From positions 5,146,001 through 5,210,000 of the forward strand of contig NZ_CP108054.1 in NCBI RefSeq assembly GCF_036173125.1: 64,000 nt of DNA, written 5' to 3'. The number at the start of each line of letters is the position of its first letter. Position 1 is the stretch's first letter. Below the pieces are notes generated by a model. It was not told the origin of the DNA. It searched no databases and worked only from the letters and a program-made list of their open reading frames with translations. The translations under genes were made by a program, and so were the position numbers. Of this stretch, positions 2,956 through 59,160 are shown one piece after another. The stretch comes from Streptomyces sp. NBC_00286 (GTDB lineage Bacteria > Actinomycetota > Actinomycetes > Streptomycetales > Streptomycetaceae).

Positions 2956-2983
2956 GGGCCATGTTTCACGTGAAACATGGCCC
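2956..2983. other. parS: parS site (perfect) inside a 28-bp perfect palindrome
   Basis: The 14-bp ParB site GTTTCACGTGAAAC lies at 2963-2976 and is extended on both sides by GGGCCAT/ATGGCCC into a perfect 28-bp palindrome. It sits between the convergent cca gene and the small anchored-protein gene, so its transcript could fold into a terminator-like hairpin. ParB binding is known for this consensus; the terminator role is inferred. Confidence 0.93.
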
Positions 2984-3006
2984 GACACGACTGGATCCGG
3001 ATACGC

Positions 3007-3042
3007 CGAGGGCCGTTGTTTCACGTGAAACAACGGCCCTCG
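3007..3042. other. parS: parS site (perfect) inside a 36-bp perfect palindrome
   Basis: GTTTCACGTGAAAC at 3018-3031 is flanked by 11-nt arms CGAGGGCCGTT and AACGGCCCTCG, giving a perfect 36-bp palindrome. It is 55 bp from the previous site in the same convergent gap, 17 bp past the stop of the minus-strand gene. A dual role as ParB site and bidirectional terminator is plausible. Confidence 0.93.
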
Positions 3043-3058
3043 CGCGTCAGATGAGCTT

Positions 3059-3550
3059 CTACTTGGCGGGGTACTCCGACAGGCAGAGGGTGAACTCGCT
3101 GCTGCTACCGGTCTCGGTGTACTGGGCGTACTTGGTGCGGTCGCAGCTGGAGTCGTCGGTCTTCTTTTGCTCGACCTTGTACGCGGCCTTGGAGTCGCCG
3201 CAGTCCACGACCTCGAGCTCCGGATCGGTGGTGCTATTCGGGTTGCCGACGCTCATGCAGTCGCCGACCTCGGCGGTGGCGGCGTCGTCCCGGCTCGCGA
3301 TGAAGCCGATGCCCGCCGCGATGACGGCGGCAACGACGACCGCGATGCGCAGGTAGAACTTGACTCCGCGCTTCCGCTGCTGGGGCGGGACCGGGGCGTA
3401 CGGCGCGTTCGGCTGCTGCGGGTAGCCGGGCTGGCCGGGAAACTGAGGCTGGCCCTGAGGTGCCGTCTGGCCCTGGGCGAACGGATTCTGGCCCTGAGGC
3501 GGCTGCCCCTGAGCGTACGGGTTCTGGCCTTGGGGCGGCGGAGTGGTCAC
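3059..3550 (-). CDS. LppU/SCO3897-family membrane-anchored protein
   Basis: 163 residues from a GTG at 3550 that follows a G-rich ribosome-binding stretch; a longer frame to 3655 exists but lacks such a site. The N-terminal third is Gln/Pro/Gly-rich with repeats of the type NPYAQGQ and NPFAQGQ, then a basic stop (RKRGVK) and one membrane segment (FYLRIAVVVAAVIAAGIGF). The outside domain has four cysteines (GDCMS, VDCGDS, SSCDR, LCLSE), enough for two disulfides. This architecture, with a disordered inside arm, one helix and a small Cys-rich outer domain, recurs in actinobacterial proteins of unknown function. Substrate and partners are unknown. Confidence 0.75.
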   Translation of the reverse strand: MTTPPPQGQNPYAQGQPPQGQNPFAQGQTAPQGQPQFPGQPGYPQQPNAPYAPVPPQQRKRGVKFYLRIAVVVAAVIAAGIGFIASRDDAATAEVGDCMSVGNPNSTTDPELEVVDCGDSKAAYKVEQKKTDDSSCDRTKYAQYTETGSSSEFTLCLSEYPAK

Positions 3551-3651
3551 TTGTGGGTCCCCCTGGAACGTTGGGAGCGCGAAGCGCGAAATAAGACCCA
3601 CGTAAGTTATCGGCCCCCACTGGCAACTCAGTGCACCGGAGACGCTCTGTG

Positions 3652-4932
3652 TCACTGATGTGACACTCGACGCCGTTCAAAGCGGGCCATAGACGCAGCA
3701 ACTGCCGCGTAGACAACGGCCACTGTGACCACCAGGTGGACTGAGCGGCCGTCAGGAGGCAGCATCAGGGCGGCCACCCCGGCGGCGCCGACGAACGCGA
3801 CGTTGAACAGCACGTCGTACACGGAGAAGATCCGGCCGCGGAAGCCGTCGTCGACGGACGACTGGACCACGGTGTCGGTGGCGATCTTCGCGCCCTGGGT
3901 GGTGAGGCCGAGGACGAAGGCTGAGATCAGTACGGGCACTTCGGTGAACGACAGACCGAGCGCGGGTTCCAGGACCGCGGCTGAACCGGCGCAGACGACG
4001 ATCCAGCCGCCCGGCCCGAGCCGCCCGGCCGCCGTCGGGGTCACCACCGCCGCCACGAAGAAGCCGGCCCCGGAGATCCCCACGGCAAGGCCCAGGAGGG
4101 CGAGTCCGTCGTCGTCCGAGCCGGACGACCAGGCGTACCGGCAGAGCATCAGCACCATGACCGTCAGGGCGCCGAAACAGAACCGCATCAGCGTCATCGC
4201 GGTCAGCGCCCAGGCGGCCTCACGGCGTGCGGGCTCGGCCAGATGGCGCACACCGGCCACCAGGCCACGTGCCGTACCCGCCAGGGCCGCCTTCAGATGC
4301 GGCTGCACCAACTCCTGGTCGGGACCCAGCAGTTCTCGCGCCATACGCAGCGAGGCGAGTGCCGCGCACAGATAGAGCGCCGCTCCGACGAGGACGACCG
4401 CGGCGTCGGAGTCCGAGATGACGAGACGTACGACGAAGGCGATGCCGCCGCCCGCGGTCGCGGCGAGCGTCCCGGCCGTGGGCGACAGGGAGTTGGCCAT
4501 CACCAGGCGCTCGGAGTCGACGACACGCGGCAGCGCGGCGGACAGACCCGCCAGGACGAAGCGGTTGACCGCGGTGACGCTCAGCGCGGAGGCGTAGAAG
4601 AGCCAGTCCGGGACACCGCTCACGATCAGCACGGCCGTCAGAGAGGCCAGCAACGCCCGCAGGAGGTTCCCGTACAGAAAAACCTGCCGACGTCGCCAGC
4701 GGTCCAGCAGCACGCCCGCGAAGGGGCCGACGAGCGAGTACGGGAGGAGGAGCACCGCCATCGCCGAGGCGATCGCAGCAGGCGAGGTCTGCCGCTCCGG
4801 CGAGAAGACGACGTACGTGGCGAGCGCGACCTGGTAGACACCGTCGGCGCCCTGGGACAGCAGCCGTACGGCGAGCAGGCGCCGGAAGTTCCGGACGCGC
4901 AGGAGTACGCGCAGGTCACGTACGACAGCCAT
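3652..4932 (-). CDS. MFS transporter
   Basis: 426 residues with about 12 hydrophobic segments and no catalytic motif. It opens MAVVRDLRVLLRVRNFRRLL, the N-terminal arginine-rich cap usual in MFS exporters of the enterobactin-exporter type. The start at 4932 was chosen because GAGG lies about 9 nt upstream; an in-frame ATG at 4989 would overlap the ino1 terminator. The inter-repeat loop carries LLDRWRRRQVF, the MFS motif-A-like sequence between helices 2 and 3. It follows ino1 on the same strand but a strong hairpin separates them, so it is probably its own unit. Substrate is not predictable; multidrug or siderophore export is a guess. Confidence 0.85.
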   Translation of the reverse strand: MAVVRDLRVLLRVRNFRRLLAVRLLSQGADGVYQVALATYVVFSPERQTSPAAIASAMAVLLLPYSLVGPFAGVLLDRWRRRQVFLYGNLLRALLASLTAVLIVSGVPDWLFYASALSVTAVNRFVLAGLSAALPRVVDSERLVMANSLSPTAGTLAATAGGGIAFVVRLVISDSDAAVVLVGAALYLCAALASLRMARELLGPDQELVQPHLKAALAGTARGLVAGVRHLAEPARREAAWALTAMTLMRFCFGALTVMVLMLCRYAWSSGSDDDGLALLGLAVGISGAGFFVAAVVTPTAAGRLGPGGWIVVCAGSAAVLEPALGLSFTEVPVLISAFVLGLTTQGAKIATDTVVQSSVDDGFRGRIFSVYDVLFNVAFVGAAGVAALMLPPDGRSVHLVVTVAVVYAAVAASMARFERRRVSHQ

Positions 4933-4954
4933 GGGGCACAGCCTCACATACGAG

Positions 4955-4987
4955 GAGGGTCCCCGGGCGTACGCCCCGGAGACCCTC
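4955..4987 (-). terminator. Terminator hairpin after ino1
   Basis: GAGGGTC (4955-4961) pairs with GACCCTC (4981-4987), and the GC-rich inner arms (CCGGGCGT/ACGCCCCGG) extend the stem. It lies 22 bp past the ino1 stop on the minus strand. Confidence 0.75.
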
Positions 4988-5009
4988 AACAGTCGTCTGA
5001 GCGAAGCTC

Positions 5010-6092
5010 TTAGCGCTCGACCTCGCCCTTGATGAACTTCTCGACGTTGTCCCGGGCCTCGTCGTCGAAGTACTGGACCGGCGGGGACTTCATGAAGTAG
5101 CTCGACGCCGAGAGGATCGGGCCGCCGATGCCGCGGTCCTTGGCGATCTTCGCGGCGCGCAGGGCGTCGATGATGACACCCGCGGAGTTCGGGGAGTCCC
5201 AGACCTCGAGCTTGTACTCCAGGTTCAGCGGGACGTCACCGAAAGCGCGGCCCTCGAGACGGACGTACGCCCACTTGCGGTCGTCCAGCCAGGCCACGTA
5301 GTCGGACGGGCCGATGTGGACGTTGTCCGCGCCCATGTCGCGGTCGCGGATCTGGGAGGTGACGGCCTGGGTCTTGGAGATCTTCTTCGACTCCAGGCGG
5401 TCCCGCTCGAGCATGTTCTTGAAGTCCATGTTGCCGCCGACGTTCAGCTGCATCGTGCGGTCCAGGACGACGCCCCGGTCCTCGAACAGCTTCGCCATGA
5501 CGCGGTGCGTGATCGTCGCGCCGACCTGCGACTTGATGTCGTCGCCCACGATCGGGACGCCGGCCTCGGTGAACTTGTCCGCCCACTCCTTCGTGCCGGC
5601 GATGAAGACCGGAAGGGCGTTGACGAAGGCGACCTTGGCGTCGATGGCGCACTGGGCGTAGAACTTCGCCGCGTCCTCGGAGCCCACCGGGAGGTAGCAG
5701 ACGAGGACATCGACCCGCTGGTCCTTGAGGACCTTGACGACGTCGACCGGGGCCTCGGCCGACTCCTCGATGGTCTCGCGGTAGTACCTGCCGAGCCCGT
5801 CCAGTGTGTGGCCGCGCTGCACGGGCACACCGGAGTTCGGGACGTCGCAGATCTTGATGGTGTTGTTCTCGCTGGCACCGATGGCGTCCGCGAGGTCGAG
5901 GCCTACCTTCTTCGCGTCGACGTCGAAGGCGGCCACGAACTCGATGTCACGGACGTGGTAGTCGCCGAACTGGACGTGCATCAGACCCGGCACCTTGCCC
6001 GCCGGGTCGGCGTCCTTGTAGTACTCGACGCCCTGGACCAGCGAGGCGGCGCAGTTGCCCACGCCGACGATGGCTACGCGAACCGAACCCAT
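5010..6092 (-). CDS. ino1: myo-inositol-1-phosphate synthase
   Basis: 360 residues, the short actinobacterial type. It opens with the NAD-binding glycine motif [16 protein letters not shown] and continues with the family signatures [25 protein letters not shown] and [15 protein letters not shown], and near the end [10 protein letters not shown]. The enzyme cyclises glucose-6-phosphate to inositol-1-phosphate, feeding phosphatidylinositol and mycothiol synthesis in actinobacteria. The start has GGGAG 8 nt upstream. It lies 45 bp downstream of a padR-type gene on the same strand, so the two are probably one operon controlled through the dyad at 6871. Confidence 0.95.
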
Positions 6093-6137
6093 TCCGGTTG
6101 CTCCCTGTGTGTTCTCGGTGAAAGTCCTGAGCGGACT

Positions 6138-6821
6138 TCACGTGTCGGTGTCGTCGGACGGATCCGGCCGGGAGGTGTCCCCGTGCCGGGGCAGGCCGCC
6201 CGACTCTCCAGATGTGCTGTCGTGCTGAGCGGAGCCGTCCGCGGCGGGACGCCGCTGGTCCCGTCCGGCCCGCTCGCTCTCGATGAGCTCGTTCAGCCAG
6301 CGCACTTCGCGCTCCACGGACTCCATCCCGTGCCGCTGGAGCTCAAGGGTGTAGTCGTCGAGGCGCTCCCGGGTGCGTGCCAGGGAGGCGCGCATCTTCT
6401 CCAGGCGCTCCTCGAGACGACTGCGGCGGCCTTCGAGGACCCGCATACGTACATCCCGCGACGTCTGTCCGAAGAAGGCGAAGCGAGCGGCGAAGTGCTC
6501 GTCCTCGTACGCGTCGGGACCCGTCTGCGAGAGCAGCTCCTCGAAGTGCTCCTTACCTTCCGCCGTCAACCGATAGACGATTTTGGCGCGGCGCCCTGCG
6601 AGTGGAGCGGCAGGTGCTTCATCGCGGGCACCCCCCGATTCCTCGATCAACCAGCCGTTCGCGACCAGCGTCTTGAGGCAGGGGTAGAGCGTCCCGTAGC
6701 TGAACGCACGGAACACCCCCAGTGAGGTATTGAGACGTTTACGCAGCTCATAGCCGTGCATCGGGGACTCGCGGAGCAGGCCGAGTACGGCGAACTCGAG
6801 GATCCCGGAGCGCCGGCTCAT
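6138..6821 (-). CDS. PadR-family transcriptional regulator
   Basis: 227 residues. The N-terminal winged helix is typical PadR: ILEFAVLGLLRESPMHGYELRKRL, then YGTLYPCLKTL and a wing ending RLTAEGKEHFEELL. A C-terminal helical region with many charged residues (RSRLEERLEKMRASLARTRERLDDY) would form the dimer coiled coil, and the last 50 residues look disordered. It is the first gene of the probable padR-ino1 unit, and a perfect inverted repeat lies 50 bp upstream, which fits autoregulation and control of inositol synthesis. The inducer is unknown. Confidence 0.9.
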   Translation of the reverse strand: MSRRSGILEFAVLGLLRESPMHGYELRKRLNTSLGVFRAFSYGTLYPCLKTLVANGWLIEESGGARDEAPAAPLAGRRAKIVYRLTAEGKEHFEELLSQTGPDAYEDEHFAARFAFFGQTSRDVRMRVLEGRRSRLEERLEKMRASLARTRERLDDYTLELQRHGMESVEREVRWLNELIESERAGRDQRRPAADGSAQHDSTSGESGGLPRHGDTSRPDPSDDTDT

Positions 6822-7195
6822 GGTCGCCTCCTCTCAGCAGAGTCTTGCCGTGACGGTCGTTATGCCGAGCTGATGTATCGACTCGATACATCAGCACGAT
6901 AGAACGGCCATCCGTACGCGACAAGAGGGAGCACGGTGAACGGCGTCACATCACCGATTCGTGGGAAGCAAGTTGCCTGTTTTGGGGTGACCTTCGGCCC
7001 TCAGGGGGTTTTGCCGGTGCGTAGTCTGTGCGCCATGCACATCACCGGGAACCAAGTGACGTTTGGGGACGTCCTCGTCCTCGGTGCGGTACGGGTGAAT
7101 GACAGAACGACCGCATCCGTACTTCGGGGGGACCGGGAAACCAGCCGCCGTTTCCAGGCGCGCAAAGGTGCGCCTGCCCGAGGAGTAACCGTTCG
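6822..7195. other. 374-bp divergent gap between padR and the PBP gene
   Basis: It holds the promoter of padR-ino1 with its dyad at 6871 and the promoter and leader of the penicillin-binding protein gene. I see no coding sequence and no convincing -35/-10 pair on the plus strand. Confidence 0.5.
6871..6893. promoter_or_regulatory. Perfect 23-bp inverted repeat, probable PadR operator
   Basis: The arms are TGATGTATCGA and TCGATACATCA around a single C. The outer ATGT and ACAT half-elements are those recognised by many PadR proteins, though the spacing (11) is longer than the common 8. It lies 50 bp upstream of padR and 303 bp upstream of the penicillin-binding protein gene. Confidence 0.7.
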
Positions 7196-9930: not shown

Positions 9931-9944
9931 GTTTCACGTGAAAC
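9931..9944. other. parS: parS site (perfect)
   Basis: GTTTCACGTGAAAC, 26 bp after the PBP stop codon. It pairs with the next site 19 bp away (start to start). Confidence 0.93.
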
Positions 9945-9949
9945 ACGCT

Positions 9950-9963
9950 GTTTCACGTGAAAC
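9950..9963. other. parS: parS site (perfect), second of a tandem pair
   Basis: GTTTCACGTGAAAC starting 19 bp after the previous copy, so the two centres are nearly two helical turns apart on the same DNA face. It overlaps the left arm of the following terminator by two bases. Confidence 0.93.
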
Positions 9964-16553: not shown

Positions 16554-16567
16554 GTTTCACGTGAAAC
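16554..16567. other. parS: parS site (perfect)
   Basis: GTTTCACGTGAAAC in the convergent gap between rplI and the MATE gene; the next copy starts 44 bp further. Confidence 0.93.
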
Positions 16568-16597: not shown

Positions 16598-16611
16598 GTT
16601 TCACGTGAAAC
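16598..16611. other. parS: parS site (perfect)
   Basis: GTTTCACGTGAAAC, second of a pair in the rplI/MATE convergent gap, about 50 bp past the MATE stop codon. Confidence 0.93.
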
Positions 16612-19932: not shown

Positions 19933-20024
19933 GTCTTCAGCTGTTGTCGCTGCGTCTTGCTTTCGGTCCGGTCGTGCTCCTGTCGGCGCTCGACGCCGGG
20001 CCTCCGACCAGGTGGACTGGGCTC

Positions 20025-21410
20025 ATGACGACATCTCAGGAAGAGCTGCTGCTCGGAACGCGCCGGGCCCTGCTGCACCGTATTGCCACCGCTCAGGCCG
20101 AGGGCCGGGCGCCGTCGATGGTGGCGGTGGTCGTGCGGGGCGGGGAGGCGGTGTGGCACGGGGCGCGTACCTCGGTGGACGGGCATGGGCCGGACGAGAA
20201 CGTGCAGTACCGGATCGGGTCGATCACCAAGACGTTCACCGCGGTGCTGATGATGCGGTTGCGGGACGAGGGAGTACTGGGCCTCGGTGATCCGCTGGAG
20301 AAGTATCTGCCGGGCACCGGAGCGGGGGAGGCGACGATCGCCGAACTGCTCGCGCATACGGGTGGGTTGGCGGCCGAGTCGCCCGCGCCCTGGTGGGAGC
20401 GTACGCCGGGCTCGCTGCGCCCGGAGCTCGCCGATGTGCTGGGCGAACAGCCGCACCGGCATCCCGTGGGGCGGCGGCACCATTACTCGAACCCCGGTTA
20501 TACGTTGCTGGGCGCGTTGGTCGAGGAGCTGAGGGGCGCGCCTTGGGAGGAGGTCCTGCGGCGTGAGGTCCTCGAGCCCTTGGGACTGCACCGTACGAGC
20601 AGCCGCCCACAGGCACCGCACGCGGGCGGCTGGGCCGTGCATCCCTGGGCGGATGTGATGCTGCCGGAGCCTGCTGAGGACCTTGGGCGGATGGCGCCGG
20701 CCGGTCAGCTCTGGTCGACCACAGGCGATCTGGCGCGCTTCGCCGCCTTCCTGGCCGAGGGGGACGATCGTGTGCTGAGTGCACGGTCGGTGCAGGAGAT
20801 GCGTACGCCCGCGGCGCCGCCTGAGGCCGATGAGGTGGCGGCCGGCGCGGCCTATGGCCTCGGCATGCAGATTCTGCACCGGGACGGGCGGATCCTTGTG
20901 GGGCATTCGGGATCCCTGCCGGGCTTCCTCGCCGGTCTTGTGATCAGCGTCGAGGACGATCTGGCCTCGGTCGTGCTCGCCAACTGCACCTCGGGCCCGT
21001 TGGTGATGACGGTTGCCGCGGACCTCGTGCGAATCGTCGCCGAGGCCGAACCCCGGGGCCCCGAGCCGTGGCGGCCGTTGCCGGAAGTCGACGCATCCGT
21101 ACTGGAGTTGGCGGGGCCGTGGTACTGGGGCACGCAGGCCTCCGCACTGCGTCTCACCGCCGATGGAGGCGTCTCGCTCGGACCCCTGTCCGGCAATGGC
21201 CGTCGCTCGCGCTTCCGGGCCAATGGCGACGGGACGTGGACGGGGCTCGACGGCTACTACGCGGGGGAACTTCTGCGGGCCGTGCGGCGCCCCGACGGAT
21301 CGGTGAGTCATCTGGACCTGGGGTCGTTCGTCTTCACGCGGCAGCCGTACGACGAGGGGGCGCCGGTGCCGGGCGGGGTGGATCCGGAGGGGTGGCGCGG
21401 GATTCGGTAG
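20025..21410 (+). CDS. Serine beta-lactamase-fold hydrolase (class C/esterase type)
   Basis: 461 residues. The catalytic SxxK is in GSITKTFTAVLMMRL, the YxN motif in HHYSNPGYTLLGALVEEL, and a C-terminal HxG in GHSGSLPG. No signal peptide is visible, so it is probably cytoplasmic and more likely an esterase or peptidase than a secreted beta-lactamase. The start at 20025 has AGGTGG about 9 nt upstream. The C-terminal 120 residues form an extra beta-rich domain, as in the DUF-tailed members of this family. Substrate unknown. Confidence 0.85.
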   Translation: MTTSQEELLLGTRRALLHRIATAQAEGRAPSMVAVVVRGGEAVWHGARTSVDGHGPDENVQYRIGSITKTFTAVLMMRLRDEGVLGLGDPLEKYLPGTGAGEATIAELLAHTGGLAAESPAPWWERTPGSLRPELADVLGEQPHRHPVGRRHHYSNPGYTLLGALVEELRGAPWEEVLRREVLEPLGLHRTSSRPQAPHAGGWAVHPWADVMLPEPAEDLGRMAPAGQLWSTTGDLARFAAFLAEGDDRVLSARSVQEMRTPAAPPEADEVAAGAAYGLGMQILHRDGRILVGHSGSLPGFLAGLVISVEDDLASVVLANCTSGPLVMTVAADLVRIVAEAEPRGPEPWRPLPEVDASVLELAGPWYWGTQASALRLTADGGVSLGPLSGNGRRSRFRANGDGTWTGLDGYYAGELLRAVRRPDGSVSHLDLGSFVFTRQPYDEGAPVPGGVDPEGWRGIR

Positions 21411-21477: not shown

Positions 21478-21505
21478 GCGTCGTGTTTCACGTGAAACAC
21501 GACGC
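21478..21505. other. parS: parS site (perfect) inside a 28-bp palindrome
   Basis: GTTTCACGTGAAAC at 21485-21498, extended by GCGTCGT/ACGACGC to a perfect 28-bp dyad between the convergent hydrolase and GNAT genes, a position expected for a bidirectional terminator. Confidence 0.93.
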
Positions 21506-21528: not shown

Positions 21529-21981
21529 TCAGAGAGGAAGCTTGAACCCCACATGGGAGGCCGTGAACCCGAGCCGTTCGTAGAACCGGTGGGCGTCGGT
21601 GCGGGTGGCGTCGGAGGTCAGTTGGACCAACTGGCAGCCCTCGCGCCGGGATTGGTCGATGGCCCATTCGATGAGCTGGGAGCCCAGGCCGCTGCCGCGC
21701 TCGTCGGCGTGAACGCGAACGCCTTCGATGATCGAGCGGGTCGCTCCTTTACGGGACAGGCCAGGAACGATCGTGAGCTGGAGAGTGCCGACGACGCGGC
21801 CTTCGCGTTCGGCGACGACTAAGTGCTGGTTCGGGTCACCGCTCAGGCGTTTCAGCGCGGTCAGGTACGGAGCCAGGTCGTCCGGTGACTCGCGCTGGGC
21901 ACCCAGCGGGTCGTCGGCAAGCATGGCGACGATGACCGGGATGTCGTCCGCATCAGCGGGTCGTATCTCAAGGTCTCCCAT
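21529..21981 (-). CDS. GNAT-family N-acetyltransferase
   Basis: 150 residues, a single GNAT domain: LEIRPADADDIPVIVAMLADD at the start, acetyl-CoA loop region VRVHADERGSGLGSQLIEWA, and FYERLGFTASHVGFKL at the end. It would transfer an acetyl group from acetyl-CoA to an amine; the substrate cannot be read from the sequence. Confidence 0.9.
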   Translation of the reverse strand: MGDLEIRPADADDIPVIVAMLADDPLGAQRESPDDLAPYLTALKRLSGDPNQHLVVAEREGRVVGTLQLTIVPGLSRKGATRSIIEGVRVHADERGSGLGSQLIEWAIDQSRREGCQLVQLTSDATRTDAHRFYERLGFTASHVGFKLPL

Positions 21982-22959: not shown

Positions 22960-23496
22960 TCAGGCTGTCTGACGGGCGCGCTCGGCGTCCACCGATTTCC
23001 GGGCAGCCATACGTAGTTTTTGACCACGCCGAGTCAGTCCCCAGGGCTTGAGGACCGAGATCACCGTCATGAAGACATAGGCGGACAGCGACACGATCGG
23101 CCCGGCCAGTACCTCGCTGACGTCGGGCAGGGGGCCTCCCGCTGAGACGGCGGCGACCGCGGAGTTGACCCCAGGGCGCAGCGCGAACAACGTGGCGGTC
23201 ATCGTGGCCAGAGTCAGCCAGAACTTCGTGTAGACCCATCGGTGCTTCGCCAGACCCCACGGAGTGCCCAGAGCCAGCACCAGACCGCTGAGGAACGTAA
23301 GGAACGCGAGGGGGAGCAGGAGCCAGTCGGCGAAGAGCTTCATGGCGCGGACGGAAGCCTCCACGGTCACTGCGGAACCGGTGGTGGTCGCGGTGATTCC
23401 GAGCGCGAGCAGGCCGAGCGTGAGCCCGAGCCAGCATGCTGAGGCGGCTACATGGACAACGAGGGTGGCCCGGCGTGCGGGGCGGGTTAGTTTCAC
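22960..23496 (-). CDS. Integral membrane protein, DUF2269-like
   Basis: 178 residues from the GTG inside the parS palindrome (MKLTRPARR...); a GTG at 23505 is the alternative. Four membrane helices: VVHVAASACWLGLTLGLLAL, LFADWLLLPLAFLTFLSGLV, VYTKFWLTLATMTATLFAL and AGPIVSLSAYVFMTVISVL. His, Trp and Lys in the loops are like those of DUF2269 proteins. It precedes the tandem GNAT gene by 5 nt. The function is not known. No Shine-Dalgarno sequence is clear for either start. Confidence 0.7.
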   Translation of the reverse strand: MKLTRPARRATLVVHVAASACWLGLTLGLLALGITATTTGSAVTVEASVRAMKLFADWLLLPLAFLTFLSGLVLALGTPWGLAKHRWVYTKFWLTLATMTATLFALRPGVNSAVAAVSAGGPLPDVSEVLAGPIVSLSAYVFMTVISVLKPWGLTRRGQKLRMAARKSVDAERARQTA

Positions 23497-23503
23497 GTGA
23501 AAC
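23490..23503. other. parS: parS site (perfect) overlapping a start codon
   Basis: GTTTCACGTGAAAC. Its right half on the minus strand supplies the GTG AAA that opens the downstream membrane-protein gene. Confidence 0.93.
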
Positions 23504-26122: not shown

Positions 26123-26136
26123 GTTCCACGTGAAAC
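26123..26136. other. parS: Near-consensus parS site (one mismatch)
   Basis: GTTCCACGTGAAAC; read on the minus strand it is GTTTCACGTGGAAC, the same variant as at 33273. It lies in the 42-bp gap between the LysR gene and the NUDIX gene. Confidence 0.75.
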
Positions 26137-27089: not shown

Positions 27090-27107
27090 CTATAAATAAG
27101 TCGATAG
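27090..27107. promoter_or_regulatory. Possible LysR-type operator
   Basis: The AT-rich imperfect dyad CTAT-N10-ATAG, with the T-N11-A pattern of LysR boxes, lies 41 bp upstream of the LysR start. It is only 18 bp, so chance is possible. Confidence 0.4.
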
Positions 27108-27185
27108 GTCTCTGTCGCTACTGTGATTGGACACTGACACAGAGTCAACTAGCCTTGTTCGCGCGGTTCTTCGCGCGCAGAACCG

Positions 27186-27224
27186 GGACGGTCCGAGCCA
27201 CGAGGGGGGAGGCTCGGACCGTCC
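27186..27224 (-). terminator. Terminator after the PLP lyase gene
   Basis: GGACGGTCCGAGCC (27186-27199) and GGCTCGGACCGTCC (27211-27224) form a perfect 14-bp stem with an 11-nt loop, 43 bp after the minus-strand stop. Confidence 0.85.
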
Positions 27225-27266
27225 GCTGTCCACATCCGTGTTACTGACCGGTCGCTCCGGAGTCCT

Positions 27267-33218: not shown

Positions 33219-35162
<1,944 letters not shown>

Positions 35163-43112: not shown

Positions 43113-43126
43113 GTTTCACGTGAAAC
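43113..43126. other. parS: parS site (perfect)
   Basis: GTTTCACGTGAAAC, first of three within 87 bp between cydB and cydCD. Confidence 0.93.
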
Positions 43127-43142: not shown

Positions 43143-43168
43143 AGGTGTGTTTCACGTGAAACACACCT
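43143..43168. other. parS: parS site (perfect) within a 26-bp palindrome
   Basis: GTTTCACGTGAAAC at 43149-43162 is extended by AGGTGT/ACACCT into a perfect 26-bp palindrome. Confidence 0.93.
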
Positions 43169-43185
43169 GCTTGACCCGAGGGTGT

Positions 43186-43199
43186 GTTTCACGTGAAAC
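43186..43199. other. parS: parS site (perfect) containing the cydCD start codon
   Basis: GTTTCACGTGAAAC. The GTG at 43193-43195 is the probable start of cydCD. Confidence 0.93.
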
Positions 43200-46100
43200 C
43201 GATCGACCCGCGACTGCTCCGGTACGCCCGCGCCACTCGCCTCTTCCTGGTGGCGGTCGTAGTGCTGGGCGTTGCCGGGGCGGCGTTGGTCATTGCCCAG
43301 GCCATGCTCATCGCCGAGATAGTGGTCGGGGCCTTCCAGCACGGGCTGGAGGTCGCCGAACTCCGTACCCCACTCCTGCTGTTGGTGGCGGTCGCAGGTG
43401 GTCGGGCGCTCGTCTCATGGCTTACGGAACTCGCCGCGCACCGGGCTGGTGCGGCGGTCAAGTCGGAGCTGCGGGGGCGGCTGCTTGAGCGTGCTGGCGC
43501 GCTAGGACCGGGTTGGCTGGGCGGGCAGCGGACGGGGTCGCTGGTCGCGCTCGCCACCCGCGGAGTCGATGCGCTCGACGACTATTTCTCGCGCTACCTC
43601 CCGCAGTTGGGGCTCGCGGTGGTCGTGCCCGTGGCGGTGCTGGCGCGGATCGTCACGGAGGACTGGGTGTCGGCGGCGATCATCGCCGGCACGCTGCCCC
43701 TCATCCCCGTCTTCATGGTGCTCATCGGCTGGGCCACGCAGTCCCGGATGGATCGTCAATGGCGGCTGCTGTCACGGCTGTCGGGGCACTTCCTGGACGT
43801 GGTCGCCGGTCTGCCGACGCTCAAAGTGTTCGGGCGGGCGAAGGCACAGGCCGAGTCGATCCGGCGGATCACCGGCGACTACCGGCGGGCGACCATGCGG
43901 ACCCTGCGGATCGCCTTCATCTCGTCCTTCGCGCTGGAACTGCTGGCCACGATCTCGGTCGCCCTGGTCGCGGTGACCATCGGGATGCGGCTCGTCCATG
44001 GCGAGATGGATCTGTACGTGGGGCTGGTCATCCTCGTTCTCGCGCCCGAGGCGTACCTGCCGCTGCGGCAGGTGGGGGCGCAGTACCACGCGGCGGCGGA
44101 AGGGCTGGCCGCCGCCGAGGAGATCTTCTCTGTGCTGGAGACGCCGGTGCCGGACTCCGGGACCGCGGTCGTGCCCGCCTCCGGCGGGATTCGCTTCGAG
44201 GGGGTGACGGTCCGGTACCCGGAGCGGTCGTCCGATGCCGTGTCGGATGTGTCGTTCACGGTCGAACCTGGCGAGACGGTGGCGCTCGTCGGGCCCAGTG
44301 GCATGGGCAAGTCGACGCTGCTGAATGCGCTGCTGGGGTTCGTGAAGCCGACCGCGGGCCGGGTGCGGATCGGGGGAGTCGATCTGGCCGAGGCCGACTT
44401 GGCCACGTGGCGTTCGCAGGTGGCCTGGGTGCCGCAGCGGCCCCATCTGTACGCGGGGGCCATCGCCGAGAACGTACGGCTGGCGCGTCCGGACGCGGAC
44501 GATGCCGAAGTGACCAGGGCGCTGGGTGACGCTGGCGCGCTCGAGTTCGTGGACGCGCTGCCCGACGGGATACGGACCGAACTGGGCGAGGACGGAGCCG
44601 GGCTCTCCGCGGGACAGCGGCAACGGCTCGCGCTGGCCCGGGCGTTTCTCGCGGACCGGCCCGTGCTGCTGCTCGACGAGCCGACGGCTTCGCTGGACGG
44701 GGAGACCGAGGGCGAGGTGGTAGAAGCCGTCCGGCGCTTGGCGGTGGGGCGGACGGTGCTGCTCGTGGTGCATCGGCCGGCGTTGCTGCGGGTGGCGGAT
44801 CGGGTGGTGCGGCTGGAGTCCGCAGTGCCAGACGCGGGAGCCGGACCTACACACACCGGCGGTACGGAGGCGCGCCGCACCGGAGCGGTGGCAGTCTCCA
44901 CGGTCGACCAGGACGAACCGCCGCTCACCACTGAGGACCGGGGTGGCGTCCTCGGCCGCGTCCGCGCCATGGCCGGACCCAGGCGCGGCCGGCTCGCGCT
45001 CGCTCTTGTGCTCGGCAGCCTCGCGCTCGGCAGTGCCGTGGGGCTGATGGCCACCTCTGGGTGGCTGATCTCGCGGGCCTCTCAGCAGCCTCCCGTGCTG
45101 TATCTGATGGTCGCCGTCACGGCCACGCGGGCGTTCGGGATCGGGCGGGCCGTGTTCCGGTACGCCGAGCGGCTGGTGTCGCACGATGCCGTGCTGCGGA
45201 TGCTGGCCGACACCCGCGTCGCCGTGTACCGGCGGCTCGAGCGGCTCGCTCCCGCCGGGCTGCGGACCACCCGGCGTGGTGACCTGCTTTCTCGGCTGGT
45301 CGCCGACGTCGACGCGCTGCAGGACTACTGGCTGCGCTGGCTGCTGCCCGCATCGGCAGCGGTCGTCGTGTCGGCCGCATCCGTGGGATTCACGGCCTGG
45401 CTACTGCCCGAGGCCGGTGCCGCCCTCGCCCTCGGACTGCTTGCCGCCGGAGCCGGCGTCCCACTGGTGACCGGTGCCGTCGCGCGCCGCGCCGAGCGCA
45501 GGCTGGCCCCCGCCCGCGGCGTCCTGGCTACCCGCGTTGCCGATCTCCTCACGGGGACGGCCGAGTTGACGGTCGCCGGGGCGCTGCCCGCACGCACCGC
45601 CGAAGCGCGGCGGGCCGATGCCGCGCTGACCCGCATCGCGTCGCGCACCGCGACCGCCACCGCGCTCGGCGACGGCCTCATCGCGCTCGTCTCCGGACTC
45701 ACCGTGGCGGCCACCGCGCTCGTCGGCGCCCAAGCGGTCGCCGACGGACGCCTCAGCGGAGTGCTGATGGCCGTCGTCGTCCTCACCCCGCTCGCCGCGT
45801 TCGAGGCCGTCCTGAGCCTGCCGCTCGCGGTCCAGTACCGGCAGCGGGTGCGCAAGAGCGCGGAGCGCGTGTACGAGGTCCTGGACGCCCCCGATCCCGT
45901 ACGCGAACCGGAGAGGCCGCGAGAGGCACCGGCGTCGCCGTTCCCGCTCGTCCTCCAGGAACTGTCCGCCCGCCACCACGGGCAGGACCGGGACGCGCTG
46001 GCCGGGCTCGACCTGACGCTCGCCCAAGGGCAGAGGATCGCCGTCGTCGGGCAGTCCGGGTCCGGCAAGACGACCCTCGCGCAGGTGCTGCTGCGGTTGC

Positions 46101-46690
46101 TGGACGCGGGCGCGGGGACGTACACACTGGGCGGCATGGACGCGTACGACCTGGGCGGTGACGACGTACGACGCCTGGTCGGGCTGTGTGCGCAGGACGC
46201 GCACCTCTTCGACAGCTCGGTGCGCGAGAATCTGCTGCTTGCCCGGAAGGACGCGACCGAGGAAGACCTGCGTGACGCACTCGGGCGGGCCCGGCTGCTC
46301 GACTGGGCCGACGGTCTGCCGGAGGGGCTCGACACCCTGATCGGCGAGCACGGGGCGCGGCTGTCCGGTGGGCAGCGGCAGCGGCTGGCGCTGGCCCGTG
46401 CACTGCTCGCCGACTTCCCGGTCCTCGTCCTCGACGAGCCAGCGGAGCACCTCGACCTTCCGACGGCCGACGCGCTGACCGCAGATCTGCTCGCCGCGAC
46501 CGAGGGCAGTACGACACTGCTGATCACCCACCGGCTGGCGGGTCTGGAGGCCGTGGACGAGGTGATCGTGCTGGCGGACGGGCGTGTGGTGCAGCGGGGC
46601 CCGTACGAGGAACTGGCCGCCGTGGACGGTCCGCTGCGGGAGATGCGGGAGCGGGAGGAGGCATCGGAGCTGCTGGTGGCGGTTCGTTGA
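43193..46690 (+). CDS. cydCD: Fused CydD-CydC ABC transporter for cytochrome bd assembly
   Basis: 1165 residues in one chain: membrane domain and ATPase (CydD-like), then a second membrane domain and ATPase (CydC-like). Walker A motifs are GPSGMGKST at about residue 367 and GQSGSGKTT at about 952; Walker B/signature segments LSAGQRQRLALARAFL and LSGGQRQRLALARALL are both present. In bacteria CydDC exports thiols and haem-related factors to the periplasmic side, which is needed for bd oxidase. The start at 43193 lies inside a parS site and follows GAGGG by 10 nt; an in-frame GTG at 43184 has only 1 nt of spacing. Confidence 0.94.
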   Translation: MKPIDPRLLRYARATRLFLVAVVVLGVAGAALVIAQAMLIAEIVVGAFQHGLEVAELRTPLLLLVAVAGGRALVSWLTELAAHRAGAAVKSELRGRLLERAGALGPGWLGGQRTGSLVALATRGVDALDDYFSRYLPQLGLAVVVPVAVLARIVTEDWVSAAIIAGTLPLIPVFMVLIGWATQSRMDRQWRLLSRLSGHFLDVVAGLPTLKVFGRAKAQAESIRRITGDYRRATMRTLRIAFISSFALELLATISVALVAVTIGMRLVHGEMDLYVGLVILVLAPEAYLPLRQVGAQYHAAAEGLAAAEEIFSVLETPVPDSGTAVVPASGGIRFEGVTVRYPERSSDAVSDVSFTVEPGETVALVGPSGMGKSTLLNALLGFVKPTAGRVRIGGVDLAEADLATWRSQVAWVPQRPHLYAGAIAENVRLARPDADDAEVTRALGDAGALEFVDALPDGIRTELGEDGAGLSAGQRQRLALARAFLADRPVLLLDEPTASLDGETEGEVVEAVRRLAVGRTVLLVVHRPALLRVADRVVRLESAVPDAGAGPTHTGGTEARRTGAVAVSTVDQDEPPLTTEDRGGVLGRVRAMAGPRRGRLALALVLGSLALGSAVGLMATSGWLISRASQQPPVLYLMVAVTATRAFGIGRAVFRYAERLVSHDAVLRMLADTRVAVYRRLERLAPAGLRTTRRGDLLSRLVADVDALQDYWLRWLLPASAAVVVSAASVGFTAWLLPEAGAALALGLLAAGAGVPLVTGAVARRAERRLAPARGVLATRVADLLTGTAELTVAGALPARTAEARRADAALTRIASRTATATALGDGLIALVSGLTVAATALVGAQAVADGRLSGVLMAVVVLTPLAAFEAVLSLPLAVQYRQRVRKSAERVYEVLDAPDPVREPERPREAPASPFPLVLQELSARHHGQDRDALAGLDLTLAQGQRIAVVGQSGSGKTTLAQVLLRLLDAGAGTYTLGGMDAYDLGGDDVRRLVGLCAQDAHLFDSSVRENLLLARKDATEEDLRDALGRARLLDWADGLPEGLDTLIGEHGARLSGGQRQRLALARALLADFPVLVLDEPAEHLDLPTADALTADLLAATEGSTTLLITHRLAGLEAVDEVIVLADGRVVQRGPYEELAAVDGPLREMREREEASELLVAVR

Positions 46691-52612: not shown

Positions 52613-52622
52613 GAGGCCGAAG

Positions 52623-53366: not shown

Positions 53367-53408
53367 CCACGCGCGCGTGCTCGCAGTTGGGGGTGCACGC
53401 GCGCGTGG
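53367..53408 (+). terminator. Terminator of the ABC cluster
   Basis: CCACGCGCGCGTGC (53367-53380) and GCACGCGCGCGTGG (53395-53408) form a 14-bp stem, followed by CCTCTTTTG. The stem plus T-run is the clearest intrinsic terminator in the window. Confidence 0.9.
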
Positions 53409-53489
53409 GGCCTCTTTTGATCTTGAGACCGGTTTTACGGGCGCAACGGCACACTTGTCCAAAGGGATGCACGGCAAGGAGGAACGGGG

Positions 53490-55058: not shown

Positions 55059-56341
55059 TTGGCGGCCTTGGCGACCGGCTCCAGGATCTCCCGGCCACCC
55101 AGGAACGGCCGCAGCACCTCGGGCACGCGTACGGAGCCGTCGGCCTGCTGATGGTTCTCCAGGATCGCCACGATCGTGCGCGGTACGGCGCACAGCGTGC
55201 CGTTCAGCGTCGCGAGCGGCTTCACCGTCTTGCCGTCCCGCATACGGATCGCCAGGCGGCGCGACTGGAACTCCGTGCAGTCCGAAGTCGACGTCAGCTC
55301 GCGGTACTTGCCCTGGGTGGGGATCCACGCCTCGCAGTCGAACTTACGGGCTGCCGAGGACCCCAGGTCGGCCGAAGCCACGTCGATCACCCGGAACGGC
55401 AGCTCCAGCGAGGTCAGCCACTGCTTCTCCCAGTCCAGCAGGCGCTGGTGCTCGGCCGCCGAGTCCGCCGGGTCGACGTACGAGAACATCTCGACCTTGT
55501 CGAACTGGTGCACCCGGAAGATGCCGCGTGTGTCCTTGCCGTGCGAACCGGCCTCACGGCGGAAGCACGGCGAGAAGCCCGCGTAGCGCAGCGGGAGGCG
55601 GTCGCCGTCGATGATCTCGTCCATGTGGTACGCGGCGAGCGCCACCTCGGAGGTGCCGACCAGGTACAGGTCGTCATTGTCGAGGCGGTACACGTCCTGC
55701 GCGGCCTGGCCGAGGAAGCCCGTGCCGGCCATGGCCTGCGGGCGGACCAGCGCCGGAGTCAGCATCGGTGTGAAGCCGGCGGCCGTGGCCTGCGCCATCG
55801 CCGCGTTCACCAGCGCGAGCTCCAGGAGCGCGCCGATGCCGGTGAGGAAGTAGAAGCGCGAGCCGGAGACCTTGGCGCCGCGCTCGACGTCGATCGCCCC
55901 GAGCGTCGTGCCGAGCTCCAGGTGATCCTTCGGCTCGAAGCCCTCGGCCGCGAAGTCACGGATCGTGCCGTGCGTCTCCAGCGTGACGAAGTCCTCCTCG
56001 CCGCCGACCGGGACGTCGGGGTGCACGAGGTTGCCCAGCCGGAGCAGCAGCTCCTGGGTCTCGGCCGCTGCCTCGTCCTGCGCCGCGTCGGCCGCCTTGA
56101 CGTCGGCGGCGAGCTGACCCGCCTTCTTCAGGAGCTCGGCCTTCTCGTCGCCGGAAGCCTTGGGGATGAGCTTGCCGAGCGCCTTCTGCTCGGCGCGCAG
56201 CTCGTCGAAGCGGAGGCCGGACGACCTGCGCCGCTCGTCGGCGGAGAGTAGGGCGTCGACGAGCGCGACGTCCTCTCCACGGGCGCGCTGCGACGCACGC
56301 ACACGGTCGGGGTCCTCACGGAGCAGGCGAAGGTCAATCAC
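55055..56341 (-). CDS. serS: Seryl-tRNA synthetase
   Basis: 428 residues. A helical N-terminal arm ([18 protein letters not shown], then [20 protein letters not shown] coiled coil) binds tRNA-Ser; class II motif 2 is [27 protein letters not shown] and motif 3 lies near the C-terminus ([21 protein letters not shown]). It charges tRNA with serine. It overlaps a HAD phosphatase gene by 4 bp. The upstream gap carries DnaA boxes. Confidence 0.97.
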
Positions 56342-56904
56342 CCCTCAAGGCTACCGGTGCGGTGTTCGGGCCCACGACCCGGTATTCCGATCTGTCGCCG
56401 CTGACCGTTATGCGAGAGTTGATCATGTATGTCAATGAAAGAGGCTCAAATCCCCTGAATGGGGCAGTGACGGTTCCGTGCATTGACCTGATTTCCTTGC
56501 GGGGAACGGGACTTGGGTCGTGGGTTGTCCACAGGGGCCCGCGCTCCTCGGAGAGTTATCCACAGGCTGTGCGAAAGATCTGTGGACTTCGGAGATGACC
56601 GTTCCGAAAGCGGCATGCGGGGGCGAAAAACCCCCGAGTCTGACCCGCTCTCCATGCCCTTTCGGGTGGAAATGGTTCGCTCCAAAGGGTGGGTTGAGGG
56701 AAACGGGTAGACGAAGTCCTATCTGCCGTGCTGTGGGTCCAGTTGGGGATCGAAGGGCGATTTGTCGACTGCATCACGCCTCGTTGTCGACTTGTCCCCA
56801 GGTCGAGAACGGGCCCTGTGGATAACTTCTGTGGATGAAGATGAGCGGCTGGTAGGACCGGCTTGGACCGGGCACGAACCAGGCATGGACCCGGCTTGGA
56901 CCGG
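56342..56904. promoter_or_regulatory. Intergenic DnaA-box cluster between serS and pheA
   Basis: 563 bp with no gene. DnaA-box matches: perfect TTGTCCACA at 56525-56533, perfect TTATCCACA at 56556-56564, perfect TTATCCACA (minus) at 56817-56825 and TCATCCACA (minus) at 56830-56838. One-mismatch TTGTCCCCA at 56792-56800 and a weak AAGTCCACA (minus) at 56581. The density is far above chance in GC-rich DNA. Confidence 0.8.
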
Positions 56905-57837
56905 CTAGAAACGGCCGTCCTGGCAGCGCGCCAGCCAGTCCGAGGCCGCCGCGAACTCGCCGTCGGACGTCCCCGCTCCTGGAGTGCGTACGTCCTGGAG
57001 GTCGACCTCGGCCCGCGGATAGGACCCGAGGAACCGCACCTGCGGACACCTCCGCTTGAGGCCCATCAGCGCCTCGCCCACCCGGCGGTCCGCGATATGG
57101 CCCTCGGCGTCGATGGCGAAGCAGTAGTTGCCGATGCCCTCACCGGTCGGCCGGGACTGCAGCAGCATCAGGTTGACGCCGCGTACGGCGAACTCCTGGA
57201 GCAGTTCGAGCAGGGCGCCCGGGTGGTCGTCGCGCTGCCAGACGACCACGGACGTCTTGTCCGCGCCGGTCGGCGCCGCGGGCCGGGCGGGCTTGCCCAC
57301 CAGCACGAACCGGGTCTGCGCGTTCTCCGCGTCGTGGATCCCGGTCTCCAGCGGCACCAGGCCGTACTTCTGGGCCGCGAACTCACCCGCGAAGGCCGCG
57401 TCGTAGCGTCCCTCCTGCACCAGGCGCGCGCCGTCCGCGTTCGAGGCCGCCGACTCCCAGATCACGTCCGGGAGGTTGTTCTTCATCCAGATGCGCACCT
57501 GCGGCTGGGCGGCCGGGTGCGCGGTCACCGTCTTGATCTCCGAGAGCTTCGTGCCAGGCCTGACCAGCAGGGCGAAGGTGATCGAGAGCAGCACCTCGCG
57601 GTAGATCATCAGCGGTTCGCCGGCGACCAGTTCGTCGAGCGTCGTGGTGATGCCGCCTTCGACGGAGTTCTCGATCGGGACGAAAGCCGCCTCGGCCTCG
57701 CCGCCTCGGACCGCGTCGAGCGCGGCGGGTACGGACACCATCGGGACGAGTTCCCGGGTGGCGGTCTCCGGGAGTGTGCGCAGGGCGACTTCGGTGAAGG
57801 TGCCCTCGGGGCCGAGATACGCGTAGCTGGCTGGCAT
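56905..57837 (-). CDS. pheA: Prephenate dehydratase
   Basis: 310 residues. MPASYAYLGPEGTFTEVALR opens the dehydratase domain, VPIENSVEGGITTTLDELV follows, and a C-terminal ACT domain for phenylalanine feedback has DHPGALLELLQEFAVRGVNLMLLQSRPTG. It makes phenylpyruvate in phenylalanine synthesis. No chorismate mutase part is fused, as usual in actinobacteria. It is followed by a short gap and the Dyp peroxidase gene. Confidence 0.95.
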   Translation of the reverse strand: MPASYAYLGPEGTFTEVALRTLPETATRELVPMVSVPAALDAVRGGEAEAAFVPIENSVEGGITTTLDELVAGEPLMIYREVLLSITFALLVRPGTKLSEIKTVTAHPAAQPQVRIWMKNNLPDVIWESAASNADGARLVQEGRYDAAFAGEFAAQKYGLVPLETGIHDAENAQTRFVLVGKPARPAAPTGADKTSVVVWQRDDHPGALLELLQEFAVRGVNLMLLQSRPTGEGIGNYCFAIDAEGHIADRRVGEALMGLKRRCPQVRFLGSYPRAEVDLQDVRTPGAGTSDGEFAAASDWLARCQDGRF

Positions 57838-57906
57838 GGCCTCACCCTAATGCGCCGTGCGCAGCCGGGTTGACGCTTCCGCTCCCGGCCGCCCCAGGGG
57901 GCTTTC

Positions 57907-59160
57907 TCACCCCTCCAGCAACCGCTGCCCCACGTACTCCCCCTTCGCCGCCCCGCCCGGCACCGCGAACAGTCCGCTCGCCTCGTGCCGGATGAACGTC
58001 GACAGCGCGTCTCCCCGGTCGAGCTTGCGCTGCACCGGTACGAAGCCGCGCAGCGGGTCGGCCTGCCAGCAGACGAAGAGCAGACCCGCGTCCGGTACGC
58101 CGTCCTCGTCGAAGCCGTCGTGGAAGGAGAACGGCCGGCGCAGTATGGCGGCGCCGCCGTTCTGGTCGGGCCGCGTGATGCGTGCGTGCGCGTTGATCGG
58201 GATGATGAGCTTGCCGGAGGCGTCCGTCTTCTCCAGCTCGGGCTCCGTGGTCTCGGTGCCGCCGGTCAGCGGTGCCCCGTCCGATTTGCGCCGCCCGATG
58301 ACGTCCTCCTGGTCCTTGAGCGGGAGCTTCTCCCAGTCGTCGAGGAGCATGCGGATACGGCGTACGACGGCGTAGGAGCCCCCGGCCATCCATGCGGGCT
58401 CGCCCGCATCGGGTACGAAGATCCGCTGGTCGAAGTCTGCTTCGGACGGCTTCGGATTGCGTGTGCCGTCGATCTGTCCCATCAGGTTGCGGGCCGTCAT
58501 CGGCTGAGCGGTGGCGCCCGGCGAGCGGTTGAAGCCGTTCATCTGCCAGCGGACCCGGGCCGCCGAACCGGCGTCCTTCTGGATCGCGCGCAGGGCATGG
58601 AAGGCGACAAGAGCGTCGTTCGCGCCGATCTGCACCCACAGGTCGCCGTCGCTGCGCGCCTTGTCGAGCTGGTCCGAGGAGAAGTCGGGCAGCGGGTCGA
58701 GGGCGACGGGGCGCTGCTTCTCCAGTCCCGTACGGGAGAAGAAGCTGTGCCCGAAGCCGAAGGTGACGGTCAGGGACGAGGGGCCCGCGTCACGTGCGAC
58801 GGCCGTGTCCTCGCTGCCGGCCGCTTCGCCCGCCATCAGCCGCTGGGCCGTGGCGGACCAGCGGCGCAGCAGCGCGGCCGCCTCCCTGCGGCCCGTACTC
58901 CCCGCCAGATCGAAGGCGACGAGGTGGCCGCGTGCCTGGAGGGCGGTGGTGATGCCCGGCTGATGTTTCCCGTGAAACATCACCTCGTCCGCGCCGACCG
59001 AGCTGAGCGGCACGGCCTGATCTTCGGAGGGAGCCGCGACGTAACCGGCGGCCCCGCCCGCCGCACCGAGCGCGAGCCCCGTGGCACCGGCGGTACCGAG
59101 CAGCCGCCGCCGCGAAATGACCCCCTTGGGAGAGGTCTCCGGAGTGGATTGTTCAGCCAT
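57907..59160 (-). CDS. Tat-exported Dyp-type haem peroxidase (DtpA/EfeB class)
   Basis: 417 residues. N-terminal SRRRLLG twin-arginine motif with a Gly/Ala-rich hydrophobic stretch. GQIDGTRNP gives the GxxDG motif, and INAHARITRPD supplies a likely proximal His. It uses peroxide to oxidise substrates outside the membrane. In S. lividans the counterpart DtpA accepts copper from the Sco/PCuAC chaperones encoded here, which points to copper-dependent function. A degenerate parS lies inside the coding region at 58965. 8 bp after the CopCD gene. Confidence 0.9.
   Translation of the reverse strand: MAEQSTPETSPKGVISRRRLLGTAGATGLALGAAGGAAGYVAAPSEDQAVPLSSVGADEVMFHGKHQPGITTALQARGHLVAFDLAGSTGRREAAALLRRWSATAQRLMAGEAAGSEDTAVARDAGPSSLTVTFGFGHSFFSRTGLEKQRPVALDPLPDFSSDQLDKARSDGDLWVQIGANDALVAFHALRAIQKDAGSAARVRWQMNGFNRSPGATAQPMTARNLMGQIDGTRNPKPSEADFDQRIFVPDAGEPAWMAGGSYAVVRRIRMLLDDWEKLPLKDQEDVIGRRKSDGAPLTGGTETTEPELEKTDASGKLIIPINAHARITRPDQNGGAAILRRPFSFHDGFDEDGVPDAGLLFVCWQADPLRGFVPVQRKLDRGDALSTFIRHEASGLFAVPGGAAKGEYVGQRLLEG
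58965..58978. other. parS: Degenerate parS-like sequence inside the Dyp peroxidase gene
   Basis: GTTTCCCGTGAAAC, one mismatch. It is within coding sequence (MFHGKHQPG), so it may be a chance match or a codon-constrained site. Confidence 0.4.

Follow-up and report, generated by a model that had tools for sequence, protein, structure and literature searches.

Within the parS array of Streptomyces sp. NBC_00286, a subset of the sites lying at gene 3′ ends probably forms a composite element, in which a ParB-binding palindrome is fused with an RNA 3′-end hairpin. Our computational analysis concerned a 64,000-nt stretch of this genome (the window), positions 5,146,001-5,210,000 of the single 9.85-Mb contig; bare coordinates are window positions and seven-digit ones are genome positions. 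As a site we counted any match to the 14-mer parS palindrome GTTTCACGTGAAAC, tolerating up to two mismatches in the window scan and up to one in the genome scan. A sequence-only reading of the window had described a dense parS array. It was right on the array, and it missed the palindromic arms around some of the sites, their context at gene 3′ ends and the overlap of one site with a start codon. The parS array as such is already known and ordinary: an oriC-proximal array serving the chromosomal ParABS system of Streptomyces was reportedly described by Jakimowicz in 2002.

In this genome, perfect pairing extends outwards from the 14-mer by 7 pairs at 2963, 11 at 3018, 7 at 21485, 6 at 43149, 15 at 64693, 17 at 91773 and 10 at 5,043,364. 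Gene 3′ ends carry the extended palindromes at 2963/3018, 21485 and 43149, and also those just outside the window at 64693 and 91773. The features of the window concerned are as follows, sites and hairpins being given without strand.
1478..2944 (+): pcnA, of the CCA-adding enzyme/tRNA nucleotidyltransferase type; its 3′ end carries parS hairpins
2963..2976: perfect parS 3′ of pcnA, at the middle of a perfect palindrome of 28 bp (2956-2983)
2956..2983: parS-apex hairpin, predicted at -20.9 kcal/mol as RNA; orthologous arms covary
3018..3031: perfect parS, second of the two sites 3′ of pcnA, at the middle of a perfect palindrome of 36 bp (3007-3042)
3007..3042: parS-apex hairpin, predicted at -30.1 kcal/mol as RNA; orthologous arms covary
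19944..21410 (+): serine beta-lactamase-family gene, whose 3′ end faces a parS hairpin
21485..21498: perfect parS between convergent genes, at the middle of a perfect palindrome of 28 bp (21478-21505)
21529..21981 (-): GNAT acetyltransferase gene, converging on the serine beta-lactamase-family gene
43113..43126: perfect parS between cydB and cydCD, from the window scan and the conservation table
43149..43162: perfect parS between cydB and cydCD, at the middle of a perfect palindrome of 26 bp

For comparison, about 100 kb around parB was taken from 23 further Streptomyces genomes, giving 24 with this one, and sites with at most one mismatch were placed by their neighbour genes. Seven of the 31 same-genus genomes searched (G001, G007, G012, G015, G019, G026 and G030) were left out, their parB apparently lying on a contig too short for 100 kb as judged from contig numbers and coordinates. 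Among 338 sites with distinct flanks in the 24 genomes, 47 have at least 7 extra pairs; exchanging left and right arms at random between sites leaves about 1. Of all perfect spacer-free palindromes with a half-length of at least 10 in these 24 regions, 77 of 100 are centred on parS. The letters of the arms differ between species yet remain self-complementary. At least 6 extra pairs were found at 52 of 198 sites near gene 3′ ends versus 3 of 152 elsewhere, that is, 52 of 55 such arms stand at gene 3′ ends, a classification that depends on gene calls made from third-position GC and tblastn conservation, no annotation being used. Orthologous parS sites within parA, at the cydCD start and in the gaps at -8512, -6356 and 16554 have only 0-5 extra perfect pairs.

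The pcnA 3′ end was followed further in named genomes, for which the best 80 matches were listed and 50 (L172-L221) used for the pcnA statistics; these loci and the 24-genome set may share species. A perfect parS site lies within 300 nt of the pcnA end in 44 of the 50. The other 30 of the 80 loci, mostly from other actinobacteria, have no site within 300 nt of that end, and Streptacidiphilus L229, a relative of Streptomyces, is among them. The longest arms among the named pcnA loci listed give a 62-bp perfect palindrome in Streptomyces dioscori.

Pairing between the arms was scored as complementary pairs at positions 8-19 from the centre and compared with shuffled arms. Only perfect sites were counted (the 21485 group was left unfiltered, but all of its 20 sites are perfect), and the 3 middle sites of triple pcnA ends were excluded. 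The proximal pcnA site gave 548 of 816 pairs versus 368 (sd 11.9) after shuffling, the distal site 632 of 768 versus 466 (sd 9.7) and the 21485 group 157 of 240 versus 103 (sd 6.8). Three control groups of parS sites from the same genomes, taken from the gaps at -8512, -6356 and 16554, showed no excess: they gave 97 of 288 versus 99, 120 of 408 versus 120 and 134 of 324 versus 132. Nor did other actinobacteria taken together, with 274 of 935 pairs versus 267 expected at 85 sites from 54 loci, a subset of the matches drawn from at most 30 loci per search.

Covariation was examined in alignments of 41 sequences, namely 40 named loci with at least two perfect sites and the window. Cells in which both sides of a pair had changed numbered 97 versus 38 shuffled at the distal site and 126 versus 56 at the proximal site, values reached in 0 of 500 shuffles in either case. 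When the partners were slid by 1 to 3 columns, these double-changed cells fell to 26-42 (distal) and 50-60 (proximal). At the distal site, 13 pairs had at least one double change versus 9.8 shuffled (reached in 1 of 500 shuffles), and the consensus folds at -26.6 kcal/mol into a stem of 15 pairs closed by an ACGT loop.

Where a parS hairpin occupies a gap, an ordinary hairpin also tends to be missing from it. Of the 74 genomes compared at the pcnA 3′ end, 62 form a parS hairpin with a stem of at least 10 pairs, and 2 of these have a separate hairpin as well; among the remaining 12, a separate hairpin occurs in 5 (Fisher p 0.0009). In the 21485 gap, none of the 12 genomes with a parS hairpin has a separate one, and 4 of the 7 lacking a parS hairpin do (Fisher p 0.009). 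The -8512 gap never has a parS hairpin of at least 10 pairs and has a separate hairpin in 24 of 24 genomes, while the 16554 gap has a separate hairpin in 21 of 23, this genome being one of the two exceptions. The gap between cydB and cydCD carries a parS hairpin in 8 of 23 genomes.

Several results weigh against a composite element acting at RNA 3′ ends. Mutual exclusion is the weaker line of evidence, because the genomes are not independent of one another and a short gap can hardly accommodate two hairpins, and this slightly lowered our confidence in the proposal. Only three of the five separate hairpins at pcnA are clean (L217, L219 and Kitasatospora L221); that of L197 is a C-run against a G-run, and that of L220 (DvalAA-14) is itself centred on the parS variant GTTCCACGTGGAAC in a 46-bp palindrome. 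With the three clean hairpins alone, the Fisher p for pcnA becomes 0.03. Some gaps have parS and no hairpin at all, namely 4 of 74 at pcnA, 3 of 19 at 21485 and 2 of 23 at 16554, this genome included in the last. The site at 5,043,364, a 34-bp palindrome, stands not at a 3′ end but in an apparently divergent gap between aspartyl-tRNA-synthetase-type and SpoIIE-type genes, and 2 of the 85 other-actinobacterial sites do have at least 6 extra pairs. At the proximal pcnA site, 13 pairs with at least one double change compare with 12.0 after shuffling, a value reached in 143 of 500 shuffles. The hairpins lack a clear U-tract, the next 8 nt holding a mean of 1.50 T, equal to the background of 1.50 and below the 2.64 of ordinary hairpins in nearby gaps, and they are slightly weaker than ordinary hairpins (median -27.2 vs -30.8 kcal/mol, p 0.002). 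Lastly, G-U and A-C mismatches compared by eye do not separate selection at the RNA level from selection at the DNA level; an argument from strand asymmetry built on this comparison was dropped, since the control groups lean the same way.

The extended subset of sites, and only this subset, presents a stable GC-rich hairpin downstream of a stop codon. Three or more T follow 11 of 50 parS hairpins, and a larger pcnA-only set of 83 hairpins gave a mean of 1.94 T against a background of 1.28. With no clear U-tract, these are therefore not canonical intrinsic terminators; as hairpins standing without one, they have the form of I-shaped (U-lacking) terminators. Such a lack is not unusual for the genus, because 353 of 535 highly structured transcript ends of S. 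clavuligerus are without U-rich tracts according to the accessible part of PMC8269248, where these ends are considered as possible I-shaped terminators or as 3′ ends of Rho-terminated transcripts. As far as that text describes the I-shaped ends, the parS hairpins share with them a stable GC-rich stem that bears a short loop and stands right after a stop codon, and the absence of a clear U-tract; they differ in having an invariant ParB site as their apex and in being known here from sequence alone. The same text describes bidirectional transcript-end positions (PMC8269248), which the parS hairpins resemble in that they are symmetric and that several lie between convergent genes; unlike those positions, their symmetry is centred on a protein-binding palindrome and their bidirectional use is only putative.

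Based on these observations, we propose that a single ParB would load the parS array into an origin-proximal segregation complex, and that at some gene 3′ ends the invariant 14-bp ParB site would serve as the apex of a long inverted repeat. In RNA, this repeat would fold into a GC-rich stem with an ACGT loop, and the hairpin would either end transcripts arriving from the flanking gene or genes or protect their 3′ ends. ParB would hold the core constant, and the arms would be kept complementary rather than constant. Arms that are complementary but not constant bear the mark of a selected hairpin, and the location of the hairpins together with their substitution pattern points to RNA 3′ ends as the site of action. 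The binding of ParB in this strain, the function at RNA 3′ ends and the interplay of ParB with transcription are thus predicted, whereas the array with its position and conservation, the arms, their covariation, their near-confinement to 3′ ends and their tendency to exclude ordinary hairpins are computed directly from the genomes.

Several other explanations of the arms have to be considered. Their role might lie in the DNA, longer repeats aiding ParB loading, cruciform extrusion or the recruitment of SMC or topoisomerase at particular sites. This would fit the exact centring of the arms on the ParB site, the missing U-tract and the extended site in the apparently divergent gap at 5,043,364. 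It would leave unexplained why the arms are short (0-5 extra pairs) at the parS sites of parA, of the cydCD start and of the -8512, -6356 and 16554 gaps, the three gaps pairing at shuffled level, why 52 of 55 arms of at least 6 pairs stand at 3′ ends and tend to exclude ordinary hairpins, and why the 85 other-actinobacterial sites show no overall excess; we consider it unlikely. The arms could also have arisen without selection if hairpins that parS forms in the course of replication served as template for their own flanks, a mutational palindrome correction that would yield symmetric arms of varying sequence, as found. However, intergenic parS sites at three other places in the same genomes have no excess of symmetric arms, and neither do the other actinobacteria together, so that the control groups disfavour palindrome correction and we regard it as improbable.

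A plain parS array whose arms reflect chance or base composition would account for the array itself, which the known ParABS system explains as far as the available text of PMC8743542 and PMC4852455 goes. The arm-shuffled nulls, the slid-pair controls and the named-genome set all speak against a chance origin of the arms, which the control groups likewise disfavour, and we hold this explanation to be barely credible. A narrower form of our proposal is that the hairpins do not stop polymerase but shield the 3′ ends of Rho-terminated transcripts from exonucleases. The missing U-tract agrees with it, as does the suggestion, in the portion of PMC8269248 available, that U-lacking structured ends of S. 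clavuligerus may be the 3′ ends of Rho-terminated transcripts; we found nothing decisive against it, and still judge it rather unlikely as the specific form of action. The resemblance between the arms of 64693 and those of 91773 also raised the possibility that the hairpin spreads as a copied unit.

The composite element could have wider consequences. It is conceivable, though we put it forward with some doubt, that parS in Streptomycetaceae is a dual-function element, acting as centromere and as RNA 3′-end hairpin (at cydCD, as translation start). ParB occupancy could then modulate origin-proximal transcript ends and couple the state of segregation to gene expression, and transcription would be kept out of ParB loading sites. 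To our knowledge, neither the number of parS sites in streptomycetes, about twenty, nor their placement has a settled explanation. If the proposal is true, a second job may hold some parS sites in place, which would be a concrete answer for part of the array; since core and arms can be changed separately in laboratory strains, composite parS hairpins would also allow a clear-cut test of the way in which RNA polymerase and a centromere complex use common DNA. Among the papers listed by a search of the literature on parS with termination, hairpins, palindromes, intergenic regions and cydCD, none reports composite parS hairpins in its title or the opening of its abstract, subscription journals being thinly covered, and the word "terminator" is absent from PMC8743542, PMC7022226, PMC4852455 and PMC13245405. 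The composite hairpins are worth a bench test.

With regard to the array itself, all 14 sites that had been claimed in the window, 11 perfect and 3 with one mismatch, were recovered at the same coordinates. Their supposed rarity by chance was borne out by dinucleotide-preserving shuffles (n = 100), which gave 0.08 matches on average and never more than 1, against the 14 in the window. The clustering was likewise real, 9 of the 11 perfect copies falling in groups of 2 or 3 at spacings of 55, 19, 44, 36 and 37 bp. The whole genome, a single contig, contains 26 sites at a tolerance of one mismatch (19 of them perfect, 7 imperfect), and a reversed control pattern gave 0 matches genome-wide at the same tolerance. 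Counted relative to oriC, as had been proposed with the sequence-only reading, the sites are concentrated near it: 25 of 26 are confined to 5,043,364-5,237,786 (194 kb), which excludes an equal frequency far from oriC, and the remaining one-mismatch site is at 5,508,974. The 14-mer palindrome GTTTCACGTGAAAC, of the 14-16 bp expected of parS, thus occurs far above chance and clusters near oriC. The change of one half-site to GTTCC is common to 5 of the 7 one-mismatch sites (5,107,265; 5,111,755; 5,172,123; 5,179,273; 5,508,974).

As a marker of oriC we used nine matches, with one mismatch each, to what we take to be the DnaA-box consensus, at 5,127,275-5,127,795 and adjoining dnaA (at about 5,128-5,130 kb, minus strand). 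The origin-proximal placement of the array therefore stands, but the window, which starts at 5,146,001 and extends from 18 to 82 kb right of oriC, does not contain oriC itself. The array is strongly one-sided, with 17 of 19 perfect sites and 22 of 26 overall lying right of oriC. Two further DnaA boxes, one of them perfect and the other with one mismatch, stand 18 bp apart outside the oriC cluster, within the 5′ part of the parA frame (L020:8264-8290, about 5,134,264).

The sole ParB_N protein of the genome is encoded at 5,135,397-5,136,497. It is homologous to Spo0J/ParB/Noc structures and has the GERR motif, and parA is immediately upstream; it thereby combines the ParB_N domain, the motif and the neighbouring parA by which a cognate ParB is recognised. 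Binding of ParB to this consensus in Streptomyces, on which the sequence-only reading had relied, is established by ChIP-seq in S. venezuelae, for which the accessible text of PMC4852455 gives 16 palindromic sites, with nearly all ParB peaks coinciding with them. The same text gives 23 plus 1 parS sites for S. coelicolor (PMC4852455), and 20 closed streptomycete chromosomes have a mean of 22.8 predicted parS sites, 79.86% of them right of oriC, in the part of PMC8743542 available. The array described here agrees with those arrays, as far as they are described there (PMC4852455, PMC8743542), in its identical 14-bp core, comparable site number, position and one-sidedness. The covarying palindromic arms, the 3′-end hairpins and the proposed use as a translation start are described here and are unmentioned for Streptomyces ParABS in the accessible text of these two sources. 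The window sites are thus the chromosomal parS centromere array of a Streptomyces, an interpretation of the sequence-only reading that our results support, and ParB presumably binds the array in this strain.

The 14-mer is present in 31 of 31 same-genus genomes searched, at 8 to 36 copies each, and orthologous parS sites recur at identical gene junctions across the 24 genomes compared. A site was found in 24 of 24 at the parA start, within parA, in the -6356 gap and at the pcnA 3′ end, in 22 of 24 in the -8512 and 16554 gaps, in 20 of 24 in the 21485 gap and in the 23490 interval, and in 12 of 24 at the 9931/9950 junction. Offsets of the second parA site differ only by multiples of three, as expected within a reading frame. 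The one-mismatch sites of the window (26123, 33273 and 58965) are each common to 12 of 24 genomes. Two open reading frames of this genome, 3059-3655 and 22960-23574, were judged unreliable and excluded from the conservation tables. The remaining sites of the window outside the cyd genes are listed here, together with the one RNA family found.
9931..9944: perfect parS between penicillin-binding-protein and GT87 glycosyltransferase genes; site here in 12/24 genomes
9950..9963: perfect parS, 19 bp from the 9931 copy; the two are mutual inverted repeats
16554..16567: perfect parS in a convergent gap, without palindromic arms
16598..16611: perfect parS in a convergent gap, without palindromic arms
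23490..23503: perfect parS without palindromic arms; the wider interval has a site (at most one mismatch) in 20/24 genomes
26123..26136: one-mismatch parS (GTTCC half), intergenic; 12/24 genomes, always with one mismatch
33273..33286: one-mismatch parS upstream of thiC; 12/24 genomes, perfect in one (G011)
58965..58978: one-mismatch parS within a DyP-peroxidase gene; 12/24 genomes, perfect in one (G025)
27103-27227: Streptomyces RNA Scr3920 (RF02828), Rfam match at 153 bits

Rfam at the gathering threshold gave nothing in the window besides Scr3920, and the one-mismatch site upstream of thiC is therefore not inside a known riboswitch.

At cydCD, a parS site meets the start of a gene rather than its end.
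43184..46690 (+): cydCD-type ABC transporter gene, by gene call
43186..43199: perfect parS overlapping the cydCD start, in 22/23 orthologues of the fetched regions
43193..43195 (+): GTG in mid-parS, proposed as the true cydCD start codon from the ATG at this codon in G016

Among the 23 genomes whose fetched region includes cydCD, 22 have a parS site covering the start of this gene. The outer NTG is GTG in 10 of these orthologues, ATG in 9, CTG in 2 and TTG in 1; most of the orthologues have a purine-rich stretch immediately ahead of this codon. In G016, the only orthologue lacking parS, an ATG (MKPVDPRLLRYA) occupies the codon of the mid-parS GTG and is followed by a similar peptide; because of this ATG, we propose that translation of cydCD probably starts at the GTG inside parS (43193..43195). 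A scan of viral contigs with the 1168-aa protein returned no relative. A left-side parS at 5,072,870 (L026:4870-4883) overlaps the longest-ORF start of a TrkA_N/ion-channel gene; its register is the one seen at parA and cydCD. In G010, parS stays with cydCD although more than 6 Mb of the contig separates the gene from parB; the 27 perfect sites of this genome lie scattered in two ranges, 0.1-2.4 Mb and 8.1-8.4 Mb, of a contig of 9.0 Mb, the array having presumably been broken up by rearrangement or misassembly.

This genome lacks the doubly changed symmetric variant GTTCCACGTGGAAC. Three copies of the variant stand at the pcnA 3′ end of Streptomyces sp. DvalAA-14 (L220:11460-11605), one within a 46-bp perfect palindrome, and the ParB specificity of that strain may be relaxed or shifted. 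Finally, parS pairs 18-27 bp apart form mutual inverted repeats with a 14-bp stem and a loop of 4-13, as at 9931-9963, and such spacing was found in 20 of 62 neighbouring perfect parS pairs no more than 150 bp apart.

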